64,000 nt of DNA from Pirellula sp. (GTDB lineage: Bacteria > Planctomycetota > Planctomycetia > Pirellulales > Lacipirellulaceae). The position numbers and the translations under genes are program-made. Below are positions 3,288 to 9,414 of this stretch, piece after piece (position 1 is the first letter of the stretch; every line of letters starts with the position of its first letter). The stretch spans positions 1-64,000 of the forward strand of contig PNKX01000014.1 in assembly GCA_013822725.1 (NCBI GenBank), written 5' to 3'. The notes beneath the pieces were generated by a model that saw only the letters and a list, made by a program, of their open reading frames with translations, searched no databases and was not told the DNA's origin.

Positions 3288-3880
3288 ATGAGTGAACTTG
3301 TTTCAGAACGCATGGAATGCATGGAAGTGTGGGGCGGCAATCGCGCCGTCGATCGAAGGTTCGAGACCTCGGGCTTGAATATTTGGGTTCACAGTCGTCC
3401 GTACGGTCAGCCGCTAGGCGGAGGGGGGTATTACATTTCTTCGTGCGCGTCGGGGCGGATGACGCGCATGTTGCTGGCCGACATTAGCGGGCACGGCAAG
3501 CTCGTCGCACAGCTCGCAGTGAACTTGTGTGACCTGATGCGACGCAACGTGAACTATATCCGGCAGACTCGCTTCGTCGGGGCTATGAACCAGCAGTTTG
3601 GCGACTTTAGCGAGCAGGACTCATTCGCCACGGCGTTAGTCGCCACCTTCTTTGCACAGCCCGCGGCATGACGCTCTGCCATGCCGGCCATCCAGCGCCG
3701 CTTGTGTTTCGTCACAACGCATCCCAGTTGAATGAACTGGCGAAGGAGGCTCGCTCGGCTCGAGGCCTCACCGATTTGCCGCACGGCGTTGCCACCCAAA
3801 CGAACTATGTTCAGCTTTAGAGTGAATCTGTAAGCTGGCGACCTGATCAGCGACGCCGTTCGATTGCGTGGATACGAGAA
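3288..3880 (+). pseudogene. Decayed PP2C/SpoIIE (RsbU-type) serine phosphatase
   Basis: The first frame, 3288-3671, resembles a PP2C phosphatase of the RsbU/SpoIIE type: LADISGHGKLVAQLA carries the conserved Asp-Gly region. It stops at a TGA directly after TFFAQP. The next piece of the same fold, MTLCHAGHPAPLVFRHN, is in another frame starting at 3668 (ATGA overlap) and ends at 3820. A third piece, AGDLISDAV, the usual metal-binding GD..L..D region, appears in yet another frame near 3835-3860. The first metal-site motif, normally GGD.Y, reads GGGGYY. At least two frameshifts plus this change indicate a dead gene. Confidence 0.7.
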
Positions 3881-5119: not shown

Positions 5120-5968
5120 ATGCTGCCTGCGACCGGTTACGCCATGAGGGACGAGAATCGCCCTTACGCTGATGATCCTGCCTGGACGGCGGTCGAAATC
5201 GACTTCAAGCGAGCCGACCATCCCCTCCGCACCGAACCGTTTCTGCAAGGGTTGGCGTTCGATTACGTGAGCGTGCATACGCTCGACTTGTCGATCTGCA
5301 GCCCGGAGCCGGCCGATCCTCAATATCTCGATGCCCTGGTGGAAGTCGCGCACGAGAACGGAGCGCAGGCCATCACCGATCACCTGGGATTCACCCACGG
5401 CGTCAAAGGAGGCGCGGGGGTGGGGCACGTCATGGCTCCGCCATTTAGCGAGGCCGCGCTGGACTCTACCTGTCGCAACATCGACGTCATCCAACGTCAT
5501 TTCGGTCCATTCAAATTCTACGTCGAAAACCTGGCGCACTTCTTTGCGTGGCAGGGAGAGATCGACGAGATTTCGTTCATGCAACGCGTCCTGGAGCGAA
5601 CGGGCTGCGGCCTGCTGCTCGACGTCACGAACTCTTACGCCAATCAGCAAAACTTCGGCGACGATGCGGGAGACTTCATCCGAGCCGTAGTTCCTGCGGC
5701 AAGTCGCGTGCAAATGCATCTGGCGGGCGGGTACTTCGACGAGCGGTGGGGTCGATATATCGACAGTCACTCCGAATCGATCCCTCCCGAAGTCTGGACG
5801 CTCTATCAAGAAGCCCTGGCGATTGGCGCCGGCAAGGTCGACGCCGTGTTCATCGAACGGGACTGGAAGTTCCCGCGCGAGGAAGGGTGGCGCAACGAGG
5901 TTCACCGGGCGCGGCAGCTTGCCGACGAAGTCGCCCAGCGGGCGCAGGCGGCGGAGTTCGCACGGTGA
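5120..5968 (+). CDS. MNIO (DUF692) multinuclear non-heme iron oxygenase of a RiPP cluster
   Basis: 282 residues from ATG 5120, chosen because GGGAGA lies just upstream; a longer start at 5078 lacks this. The MNIO pattern is complete: VSVHTLDLS (His53), ITDHLGFTHG (His88), FYVENLAHFF (Glu136, Asn137), CGLLLDVTNSYANQQNFG (Asp168, Asn171), VQMHLAGG (His200), YIDSHSESIPPEVW (Asp215, His217) and VFIERDWKFP (Glu246). These residues match the ligands of the two or three iron atoms in the family (MbnB, TglH). Characterised members oxidise cysteine, and some other residues, in ribosomal peptides. It overlaps the next gene (GTGA) and opens the cluster that includes a lanthipeptide-type precursor, its likely substrate. 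Confidence 0.9.
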   Translation: MLPATGYAMRDENRPYADDPAWTAVEIDFKRADHPLRTEPFLQGLAFDYVSVHTLDLSICSPEPADPQYLDALVEVAHENGAQAITDHLGFTHGVKGGAGVGHVMAPPFSEAALDSTCRNIDVIQRHFGPFKFYVENLAHFFAWQGEIDEISFMQRVLERTGCGLLLDVTNSYANQQNFGDDAGDFIRAVVPAASRVQMHLAGGYFDERWGRYIDSHSESIPPEVWTLYQEALAIGAGKVDAVFIERDWKFPREEGWRNEVHRARQLADEVAQRAQAAEFAR

Positions 5969-6762
5969 AAACCTACGAACAACGCCTAGCCGATTGGTCG
6001 GACGAACTCGCAGCGGCGCGGACGCGCCAAGTCCTCGGCGATCTCACTGCCGACTGTTCGGTGCGCGACGTCGAGCGATTTCTGGAGAACGCCGTCGGCG
6101 AACGTCGGCGGATGTTGAGCGAAGAGATGGACCTCGTCGGATTGGCGTTCGACGACATGGAACGACTCATCGACGAGTATGTGGCGCTAACGCCGCGTAA
6201 GACGTTTGAGTTGCATGAGCGCGAGCCGCAGCGGTTTCTTCGTTGGCTCCGCCGCCTCCCGTTAACGCCTCAACAGGCCGACTATGTGACCTATCAAGAG
6301 TCGGAATACGCTTGTTACGAGCTGGCGCGAACCAACCGCACTACGCATCTCGCGTTTCAACGCTTGCGGAATCAATGCGTGACGGAGGATTTCGAACCCC
6401 TCGATCACGCCGATTGCCTGCTTTACCTGAATCCCGTTTGCGTTTGGTCGCAGCTAGAGGTCGCCGCGACCGTCGACGGCTCAGCGGCGAGCGGCGACGT
6501 CGCATTCATCGCCATTGATTCGCGCATCGAGATGCTCTGGCTTTCCGGCGAACAGCGAGACTTCGTCGATCGATTGAACGCCCACGCGCCTACGACTTGG
6601 ACCGCATCCGCAAATGTTGACGCGCGCCCGAGTCTGAATGCCGTCAATGCGATGGTTCGGCAACTCGTTGCCGGCGGACTATTGGCTTGCAGCGCCGTTG
6701 AACAAACGTTAATGCCGAATTTCGGAATCGACCTGAAACAAATCAATCAACCTAACGCTTAG
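5965..6762 (+). CDS. Unrecognised MNIO partner protein, possible peptide-recognition subunit
   Basis: 265 residues from GTG 5965, whose last two bases are shared with the MNIO stop codon (GTGA), implying translational coupling. MNIOs normally need a partner protein that binds the precursor leader, so position argues for that role. I do not recognise a DUF2063-type partner. The first half is helical and rich in Arg and Glu. The second half has alternating strands (LEVAATVDG, VAFIAIDSRIEMLWL) followed by a helix and NAMVRQLVAGGLLACSAV, which would suit a winged-helix fold of the PqqD/RRE kind. That fold assignment is inference. It contains 5 cysteines but no metal-binding motif. Confidence 0.75.
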   Translation: MKTYEQRLADWSDELAAARTRQVLGDLTADCSVRDVERFLENAVGERRRMLSEEMDLVGLAFDDMERLIDEYVALTPRKTFELHEREPQRFLRWLRRLPLTPQQADYVTYQESEYACYELARTNRTTHLAFQRLRNQCVTEDFEPLDHADCLLYLNPVCVWSQLEVAATVDGSAASGDVAFIAIDSRIEMLWLSGEQRDFVDRLNAHAPTTWTASANVDARPSLNAVNAMVRQLVAGGLLACSAVEQTLMPNFGIDLKQINQPNA

Positions 6763-6917: not shown

Positions 6918-7118
6918 ATGTCACGTATCGATGTCATCCGCGCTTGGAAAGATGCTGCCTTCCGTCGGACGTTGTCGTCCGAGCAACTGGCCGGAATGCC
7001 GGCGAATCCGGCCGGCGCCGTCGAGTTGACCGAGGCCGAAGCGGCCACGATCAACGGCAAGCTGGCCCTGGCCGGCTGCAGCAGCTGCCACGGATCGAAG
7101 GCTTGCCGGGTTCGCTAA
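6918..7118 (+). CDS. lanA: Mersacidin/lichenicidin-type RiPP precursor peptide
   Basis: A 66-residue peptide. The N-terminus MSRIDVIRAWKDAAFRRTLS and the following LAGMPANPAGAVELTEAEAA match the leader of the mersacidin/lichenicidin precursor family (IIRAWKDP.YR..L....... NPAG...L). The usual Gly-Gly cleavage site is replaced by ING-K at residues 45-48. The C-terminus is CSSCHGSKACRVR, with Cys54, Cys57, Cys63 and Ser55, Ser56, Ser60. Serines are possible LanM dehydration sites, and the cysteines are possible MNIO targets or thioether donors. AAAGAGA precedes the ATG. A strong hairpin follows the stop, so the peptide may be made in excess over the enzymes. Confidence 0.85.
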   Translation: MSRIDVIRAWKDAAFRRTLSSEQLAGMPANPAGAVELTEAEAATINGKLALAGCSSCHGSKACRVR

Positions 7119-7233: not shown

Positions 7234-9414
7234 ATGACGGCTCGCCAAGAATTGCTGGGGACAACGCAAACGAATTGCCACGCCAGCGGCGTCACGCTCG
7301 CGGCGTGGCTCGACGAACTGGCGGGGGCCGCGCAAGCGCCAAGCGAGGTTGCTCAAGACGATGAGAGCCGGACGCCAGACGCCTTAGGGCTGCTGGCGCT
7401 TTTCGCGATCCCCATTCGCGACGGACGGAAGCAACTGTGTGCAGGATTGCGCAAGCTTCGGCTCCATTGCCGGAAGCTTCCAGCTTCCGATCCGGTCCTC
7501 GAATCACAACTGCTGAATCACCTCTATGCGCGGCTGAAGCTGACCGCCGAACGGACGCTGGCGCTCGAACTGCAAGTCGCCAGCATTCAAGGCGAGCTGC
7601 ACGGCGACACGCCCGCGGCGCGCTTCGATTCCTTCACCGCTCGGCTGCGACAGCCCGCAGCGGCGCTGGCCATTCTTGGCGAGTATCCCGTGCTGGCCGA
7701 ACAAGCGCTGAACTGCATCAATCAATGGCTCCGCTTCAGTCTGCAGTTTGTACGGCATCTGGCTGCCGATTGGAGACGCATCCAACAAACGTTTCGTGTG
7801 CCGGCCGAGGTCGGCGACATTACGGAGATCCAGGGCGACGCCGGCGATCGCCATGCCGACGGCAAAGCCGTGATCCTGCTCCGCTTCGCCAGCGGCTTCC
7901 GGCTGGTTTATAAGCCGCGATCACTCGCCGTCGATCTCTGCTTTCAGGAATTGCTCGCCTGGTGCAATACGCGCGGCGCGAGTCCGCCGTTGTGGACGTT
8001 GCGAGCGTTGGATGAGGGAGATCACGGGTGGGTCGAGTTCGTCCAGGCTGAGAGCTGTGAAACGCGAGATCAGCTGCAACGTTTCTACCAACGGCAGGGA
8101 CTCTACCTAGCCCTCTTGTACTTGCTCCAGGCGACCGACTTCCACTTCGAGAATCTCATCGCTGCCGGCGAACATCCGGTGCTAGTCGATTTGGAAACGC
8201 TATTCCACGAACGGCTCCCGGGAACGGCGAGCACGCCGCCGATTCGCGGCATGTCGAACTCGATCGTCTCGATTGGCATCCTCCCGCGCGTCTCCTACTA
8301 CGAAGGCTTCGACAAAGGCGTCGATTTCAGCGGTTTGGGGGCCTCCATCGGTCAGGAAATTGAAACGCCGACGTACGAGTTTCAAGCGGCCGGCACCGAC
8401 GAAATGCGGCTCGACCGCATTGAGATGCATACGCTGGCGGGGAACCATCGGCCGAAACTCACGGGAGACGACGTCTCGCCGGGGAGCTTCGCTGCGGAGA
8501 TTCAGGCCGGATTCACGAGCATGTATCAGCTGCTGCAGCAACATCGCGAGGCGTTGCTTGCCGAGGAGGGCCCGCTCGCTCCGTTCGCCGCCGTCGAAAC
8601 GCGGTTTATCGCCCGGGCCACGCAGATCTATGGACTATTGCTGGAACAGAGCTTTCATCCCGATTTTCTGCGAGATCCCGAAGCTCGCTCCCAGTGGTTC
8701 GACCAACTCTGGTCGCAAGCGAAAGAGGCGGTCGGGCTTCAGCCTCTGGTTGCCGCCGAGCGCGCCGAACTGGAACGCAACGACATCCCGCTGTTTCATA
8801 TGCGGCCTGGTTCAACCGACCTTTGGACGGCGCGCGGCGAGCGAATCGCGAACTTCTTCCCCCAGACGCCGCTGGCGACCGTCCGACAACGTCTCGCAAC
8901 GCTGGGGCCCGACGACCTAGCTAGACAGACATGGCTGCTGCAGGCGGCTCTGGCCAAACTGCAGCAGGCGCCGCCCGTCGCGCTCGTCGATTTGACGGCA
9001 AGCCCTCTGCGGCTCGATGGCGAGGAGGCTGTGGAGGCGGCGATCGCCGTTGGCGAGCAACTCCGGGCACTTTGTTGGCAGGACGACGAAGCGGCCGGAT
9101 GGCTTGGCGTCCAACAGCGCGAACGGGGTTGGTTCGTCGATGCGATCGGTCTGGAAGAGGGGGGACTGCTCGAAGTCGCGACGCTGCTCGTGCAACTCGA
9201 CAGGATCACCGGGGAGTCGCGACACGGCAGCTTGCTCGCCAAAGCGATACGTTCGATCAACCGCCTGATTCAAGATTCGCCGCAACCGCTGCCTGGCGAC
9301 TGGCGTGACCGCGCCGAAACGTTTACGGCCATGCTGCCAGCCCGCCAGGAGCCAGAGTTGCGCCGTGAAACGGCCCGAATGACCGAAGTGATGAAAAGTA
9401 CCGCTAGTACTTAG
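7234..9414 (+). CDS. lanM: LanM-type lanthipeptide dehydratase with truncated cyclase domain
   Basis: 726 residues; family members are normally about 900-1100. The dehydratase domain (DUF4135) is complete: GDRHADGKAV (205-213), RLVYKPRSL (223-231), TDFHFENL (301-308), VDLETLFHE (318-326) and RGMSNSIVSIGILPR (338-352) match the LanM phosphorylation and elimination centre. From about residue 586 the chain resembles only the start of the LanC-like cyclase (GWLGVQQRERGWFV, GLEEGGLLEVATLLVQLDRITG) and ends near 726. The zinc ligands of LanC (Cys, Cys-His) are absent. I infer that it dehydrates Ser in the precursor but cannot catalyse thioether rings in the usual way. No remnant of the missing cyclase is visible before the next gene. 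Confidence 0.88.
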   Translation: MTARQELLGTTQTNCHASGVTLAAWLDELAGAAQAPSEVAQDDESRTPDALGLLALFAIPIRDGRKQLCAGLRKLRLHCRKLPASDPVLESQLLNHLYARLKLTAERTLALELQVASIQGELHGDTPAARFDSFTARLRQPAAALAILGEYPVLAEQALNCINQWLRFSLQFVRHLAADWRRIQQTFRVPAEVGDITEIQGDAGDRHADGKAVILLRFASGFRLVYKPRSLAVDLCFQELLAWCNTRGASPPLWTLRALDEGDHGWVEFVQAESCETRDQLQRFYQRQGLYLALLYLLQATDFHFENLIAAGEHPVLVDLETLFHERLPGTASTPPIRGMSNSIVSIGILPRVSYYEGFDKGVDFSGLGASIGQEIETPTYEFQAAGTDEMRLDRIEMHTLAGNHRPKLTGDDVSPGSFAAEIQAGFTSMYQLLQQHREALLAEEGPLAPFAAVETRFIARATQIYGLLLEQSFHPDFLRDPEARSQWFDQLWSQAKEAVGLQPLVAAERAELERNDIPLFHMRPGSTDLWTARGERIANFFPQTPLATVRQRLATLGPDDLARQTWLLQAALAKLQQAPPVALVDLTASPLRLDGEEAVEAAIAVGEQLRALCWQDDEAAGWLGVQQRERGWFVDAIGLEEGGLLEVATLLVQLDRITGESRHGSLLAKAIRSINRLIQDSPQPLPGDWRDRAETFTAMLPARQEPELRRETARMTEVMKSTAST

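Follow-up and report, generated by a model that had tools for sequence, protein, structure and literature searches.

Organization of the operon

The window analysed here, a stretch of 64,000 nucleotides from Pirellula sp., carries a six-gene RiPP operon read in one direction, in which genes for an MNIO, a TglI-like partner, a precursor, a LanM, a C39-peptidase ABC exporter and an HlyD protein follow one another (Table 1). The MNIO is the only one in this genome, is common to five clusters at 67–85% identity and can be aligned with TglH, MbnB and 3bww. Residues H53, D87-H88, E136-N137, D168, H200, D215, H217 and E246 are invariant in the five clusters, and with these His/Asp/Glu positions and its PF05114 match the protein has the metal-ligand motifs of the MNIO family. 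With 134 bits against MNIO_BufB (cut-off 310) and 118 bits against HvfB (cut-off 360), it falls outside the bufferin and oxazolin equivalogs. The partner has no Pfam match; however modest their TM-scores (0.49–0.53), the best Foldseek matches of its AlphaFold2 model (pLDDT 76.6) are TglI of the TglHI holoenzyme (8hi7_A, 8hci_A) and NGO1945 (3dee), with E-values of 1e-3 and 8e-3, and by this fold match it is a partner of the DUF2063/TglI/MbnC type.

The precursor scores 62.1 bits against TIGR03898 (cut-off 23.5) and so has a class II leader. Candidate cleavage sites lie near G47, where the leader model ends and K48 follows, or after A52-G53, directly before the first Cys. Downstream, the peptidase motifs DCGPA, GHYVV and GDPAGG of the exporter are intact. 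Promoter and terminator scans gave results at about chance level, and an Rfam scan of the window found no riboswitch or other RNA besides a tmRNA gene (RF00023; 3948-4312, minus strand; tag ARQTLDTRAAK), its only match. Upstream of the operon, a 127-aa SpoIIE-like phosphatase fragment (3288-3671, plus strand) is ended by a stop; the domain seems to continue in another frame, and the gene may be frameshifted.

Table 1. Coordinates of the operon features and of the peptides encoded at sister MNIO loci (the latter as locus:positions)
Feature	Position	Strand	Basis
MNIO (DUF692 / MbnB_TglH_ChrH) oxidase, 282 aa	5120..5968	+	PF05114, E 3e-47
MNIO partner, 265 aa; N-terminal helical part, C-terminal RRE-like winged-helix part	5965..6762	+	AlphaFold2 and Foldseek
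Precursor peptide, 66 aa, mersacidin/lichenicidin-type leader	6918..7118	+	TIGR03898; homologues in 4 other clusters
Core CSSCHGSKACRVR, residues 54-66	7077..7115	+	Alignment of precursors
LanM without cyclase active site, 726 aa	7234..9414	+	ATG 7234, stop 9414; PF13575, TIGR03897, alignment, AlphaFold2
Dehydratase part of LanM, residues 83-580	7480..8973	+	Alignment to CylM/LicM2 and residue roles in PMC4550811
LanC remnant without zinc site, residues 596-726; a helix, the three-strand element and four helices	9019..9411	+	AlphaFold2, cyclase-query search, alignment
Three-strand element, residues 615-637, counterpart of CylM Ile666-Leu690	9076..9144	+	AlphaFold2; PMC4550811
C39-peptidase ABC exporter (LanT-like), 747 aa	9545..11788	+	PF03412, PF00664, PF00005
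HlyD-type membrane fusion protein, 421 aa	11788..13053	+	PF13437, TIGR01843
Sister-locus peptides	L075:1980-2246, L076:5812-6018, L077:7149-7283, L078:7954-8076, L079:7319-7537		
Sister-locus peptides	L084:7801-7932, L085:7621-7752, L090:7286-7513, L052:6518-6652		
Sister-locus peptides	L051:3558-3737, L081:7534-7773, L087:7485-7796, L089:7465-7662		

Dehydratase and cyclase remnant of the LanM protein

A first-pass annotation of this DNA had assigned a full dehydratase to residues 1-585 of the LanM protein, and profile searches bear this out: residues 151-523 cover PF13575 (LanM dehydratase) from end to end (E 4e-123). Against TIGR03897 (NCBIfam LanM), residues 83-681 match profile positions 24-635 of 932 only (E 1e-169). 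Residues were mapped on the two LanMs of solved structure, CylM and LicM2, which are also the top-ranked Foldseek matches of the model. The phosphorylation residues K227, D302, H304, N307 and D319 correspond to K274, D347, H349, N352 and D364 of CylM, and the residues for phosphate elimination, D205, H207, R457 and T463, to D252, H254, R506 and T512 (roles from PMC4550811). All nine are thus kept, and they are invariant in the 12 LanMs aligned. Freed of the cyclase by excision, CylM 1-625 still dehydrates its substrate (PMC4550811). The sequence of the window LanM shows a conserved, intact dehydratase; the protein has the phosphorylation and elimination residues of a class II enzyme and lacks the C-terminal LanC-type cyclase with its zinc triad.

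PF05147 (LanC) finds no match in the window LanM, and the alignment offers no counterpart for the zinc-ligand motifs WCHG and LCHG of the full-length proteins L013 and L014 (CylM Cys875, Cys911 and His912), as the initial reading of missing zinc ligands had held. A cyclase query taken from a full-length relative matches residues 607-688 only, which correspond to the first 84 of its 401 positions, and about one third of the LanC domain, its beginning, is kept. The structure prediction that had been called for (AlphaFold2, pLDDT 80.7) likewise yields the start of a CylM-type domain only. Of the roughly 140 LanC-like residues originally described, the beginning is indeed present, but the recognisable part is confined to about residues 596-690, and the last 40-60 residues of the protein are not conserved. 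The element of CylM to which the three strands correspond was proposed to bind the leader peptide (PMC4550811). A frameshifted or split gene was considered and rejected: only 130 bp separate the stop codon from the next gene, and remains of a cyclase are absent from the other frames, in the operon as well as around the four relatives.

Between the window and Lacipirellula limnantheis, with dS near saturation and omega values to be read as relative only, omega of LanM rises from 0.08 in the DUF4135 region to 0.21 across residues 581-660 and 0.88 across residues 661-726; that of the MNIO, the exporter and HlyD is 0.07-0.09. The contrast points to a dehydratase kept functional by strong purifying selection, to partial constraint on the stretch that contains the three-strand element and to almost none on the last 66 residues.

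Related clusters and the target of the MNIO

LanM profile searches covered order, class and phylum, with about 400 genomes per level in overlapping samples, and LanM-like proteins proved rare among these planctomycete genomes. When related loci were sought, a single LanM query recovered none and a query with the MNIO alignment recovered three named loci. The order MNIO, partner, precursor, LanM recurs in four further genomes, namely L. limnantheis (same genus; L004), a Pirellulales MAG (L005), a genome of another family in the same order (L012) and a Gemmataceae MAG with two precursors (L027). The zinc site is absent from all five MNIO-linked LanMs (window 726, L004 744, L005 855, L012 767 and L027 645 aa), which come from five genomes in three families. 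Alignment to relatives, suggested at the outset as a check, thus shows the cyclase loss to be conserved, and the close relatives, in which a full-length cyclase at the same place would have spoken for a recent truncation, are themselves without one. The loss takes different forms: L005 and L012 carry an internal LanC deletion and keep the last motif, PGxxxGLAGxGxxLL (equally good in 0/1000 and 2/1000 shuffles, respectively), the window and L004 proteins end earlier, and L027 is without any LanC, even the stretch with the three-strand element being lost. A decayed GxSHG motif in the middle fragment of the L012 remnant was discarded, as 3-26% of shuffles were equally good.

By comparison, neither an MNIO nor a partner lies near any of the seven full-length LanMs of the phylum whose flanks are informative (L013, L014, L030, L056, L057, L058 and the second LanM of L059). 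The contrast of 5/5 with 0/7 corresponds to a Fisher probability of 1/792, which serves as a description and not as an independent count, for the five share ancestry. The LanM-linked MNIOs form one clade with support of 100/98; in the LanM tree, the grouping of the cyclase-less proteins has weak support (48/51). Taken together, the comparisons indicate that the genes for MNIO, partner, precursor and LanM have been passed on as a set and that the truncation of LanM is no accident.

The motif C-S-[S/G]-C-H-G is invariant in the six precursors, whose cores otherwise differ in length and sequence. Every core holds three Cys and at least one Ser, with the third Cys at position 7 (L012, L027) or 10 (window, L004, L005). 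In the L027 core, Ser and Thr are limited to the serines of CSSC, which must therefore be the target of the dehydratase there, if that core is dehydrated at all. The two L027 precursor genes lie in tandem (L027:7279-7527 and 7766-8011), and their sequences, with the upstream reading frame, are nearly identical as far as the core; this pattern suggests a recent duplication with diverging cores. In all five loci, the invariant motif also fits CxxCH, the sequence at which c-type cytochromes attach haem. Haem attachment was set aside, as modification of the Cys should precede export and the operon contains no haem machinery; metal binding is one possibility for the invariant His and Gly.

Within the class, about 20 of 343 genomes have MNIOs of a sister clade, with the same kind of partner and no LanM nearby. 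Directly upstream, most of these loci encode a short unannotated peptide whose core consists almost entirely of Cys and Arg (RCCRCCRCCRGR, for example). The peptides, from Gemmataceae and Pirellulales, share a leader of about VREL..LRT....KK.AER, with RSCRSCRSC and CRRGCNRGCRRGC as further examples of their cores. They look like an undescribed family of MNIO precursors in which Cys is the only obvious target. Since the sister enzymes adjoin such Cys/Arg-only cores, Cys is likely to be the target of the LanM-linked MNIOs as well, as far as neighbouring genes can tell. MNIOs also modify Asp, Asn and Phe.

Proposed pathway, rival readings and known systems

On the basis of these comparisons, we favour, with moderate confidence, a working RiPP operon in which a class II lanthipeptide dehydratase and an MNIO would together produce dehydroalanine and oxidized Cys, lanthionine closure being dispensable. 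The mersacidin-type leader would be held by the RRE-like domain of the partner and by the three-strand element of the LanM remnant. The MNIO and its partner would oxidize one or both Cys of C-S-x-C-H-G, probably to a heterocycle of the thiooxazole or oxazolone-thioamide type, as in bufferins, oxazolins and methanobactins (PMC12452194). LanM would phosphorylate the conserved Ser, and possibly others, and eliminate the phosphate to leave dehydroalanine; the C39 exporter and HlyD would remove the leader and secrete the product. The cyclase may have become dispensable because the MNIO uses the thiols on which LanC would have acted: once these are consumed, lanthionine formation would be left without substrate and the cyclase domain would erode. 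Of the four outcomes listed by the first-pass annotation, replacement by MNIO chemistry and a product that retains dehydroalanine fit best, as cyclase loss tracks the MNIO, and its interpretation of a cyclase-deficient LanM is supported. Enzyme-free ring closure of Dha2 by the third Cys or by Cys1 is possible.

Such closure is central to an alternative in which a lanthipeptide is still made: the dehydratase would install dehydroalanine, a Cys would add to it without a cyclase, for example Cys1 or the Cys at position 7 or 10 to Dha2, and the MNIO would modify another Cys. The composition of the cores would permit this. Mersacidin has a ring between Cys1 and the adjacent Thr2, and dehydro residues are generally known to undergo addition without an enzyme. 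Yet ring size would not be conserved, given the shifting third Cys, and the two invariant Cys, at -1 and +2 of Ser, are awkwardly placed for the usual rings; we regard this alternative as unlikely, though with some claim to attention. Closure in trans by a LanC-like protein encoded elsewhere is very unlikely for the window locus. One genome (G056) does have a LanC-like ORF of 480 aa elsewhere, and another (G587) has a match at a contig end, but at E-values up to 0.1 PF05147 finds no LanC-like protein in either of the two closest genomes, that of the window (86% complete) and that of L. limnantheis (2 contigs, 6.8 Mb, 94% complete), and neither encodes a HopA1/LxmY-type (class V) protein. A LanC homologue elsewhere in the same genome, which the annotation had named as contrary evidence, is thus missing from both, and trans closure is largely refuted there. 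The second LanM of the Gemmataceae MAG seems to be split over two contig ends (L028, G587:C126; L054, G587:C317), and the G587 match seems to stand alone because it would be the C-terminal, cyclase half of this broken protein.

LanM might act only as a kinase, or as a scaffold that binds the leader for the MNIO, with no dehydration. However, the elimination residues D205, H207, R457 and T463 are invariant in all 12 aligned LanMs along with those for phosphorylation, and we consider so limited a role improbable. Decay of a normal lanthipeptide cluster, with LanM as a pseudogene or a recent truncation, would account for the near-neutral last 66 residues (omega 0.88), but hardly for a cyclase loss common to five genomes of three families, for a constrained dehydratase (omega 0.08) with every catalytic residue kept, or for an open frame in a complete operon; it can scarcely be credited.

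The pathway that we propose would work much like that of the dehydrazoles, in which a YcaO turns Cys, Ser and Thr into azoles and a LanM-type enzyme without zinc site yields dehydroalanine and no lanthionine (PMC10676384). Both here and in carnazolamide biosynthesis (CcaM, LanMbC and YcaO), a DUF4135 dehydratase without a zinc cyclase stands beside a second enzyme that forms heterocycles, as here proposed, and dehydroalanine would be kept. The dehydrazole systems, however, use a YcaO and an NHLP-type leader and keep a full-sized, zinc-free class III cyclase domain, which in CcaM is still required for dehydration (PMC10676384); the window system has an MNIO with its partner, a mersacidin-type leader and a deleted cyclase domain. 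No YcaO is found among the genes of the operon, the leader is of the TIGR03898 and not the NHLP type, and no full class III-like cyclase is fused to DUF4135, the deletions differing among the clusters and L027 retaining nothing of the domain. By analogy with CcaM, the LanM remnant may matter more than assumed. With class II lanthipeptide systems (CylM, LicM2; mersacidin, lichenicidin) the operon shares the dehydratase, the TIGR03898 leader, the LanT-like C39 exporter and the order precursor, LanM, exporter, whereas it lacks the cyclase active site and adds the MNIO and its partner. The locus thus fits the definition of neither a dehydrazole nor a full class II lanthipeptide cluster.

Among MNIO RiPPs (bufferins, oxazolins, methanobactins, pearlins/TglHI and chryseobasin), an MNIO with a TglI/DUF2063-like partner likewise lies by a Cys-containing precursor, but none of those in PMC12452194 has a LanM dehydratase or a mersacidin-type leader, and neither LanM nor DUF4135 occurs in the text of that MNIO landscape paper. 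A further likeness is a passing mention that the sprH3/sprPT pair adjoins DUF692 (MNIO) in four clusters (PMC7794033); there too a lanthipeptide dehydration system stands beside an MNIO gene, but its enzymes are of class V and the combination was not analysed. The searchable literature, which mostly excludes subscription journals, yielded no MNIO–LanM hybrid. Large lanthipeptide surveys take LanC-like proteins (PMC7268733) or, likewise, the cyclase domain (PMC11251773) as their starting point, and dehydratases that have shed their cyclase are therefore invisible to them by design.

The locus joins a cyclase-free LanM to an MNIO and points to an undescribed hybrid peptide family. It is quite conceivable, and we suggest it tentatively, that this is a new hybrid RiPP family of planctomycetes whose single C-S-x-C-H-G core is modified by an MNIO pair and by a cyclase-free LanM alike, with dehydroalanine set beside an oxidized, possibly metal-binding Cys heterocycle, LanM perhaps recognizing the MNIO-modified core as CcaM does azoles. 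The six-residue conserved core would be a very small substrate on which to work out the order of MNIO and LanM action, and natural stand-alone LanM dehydratases of 645-726 residues are possible tools for the installation of dehydroalanine. A testable rule suggests itself, that the cyclase is lost where another enzyme takes over the Cys. If the hybrid family is real, it would represent a second, independent route by which Cys-consuming chemistry made the lanthipeptide cyclase redundant.
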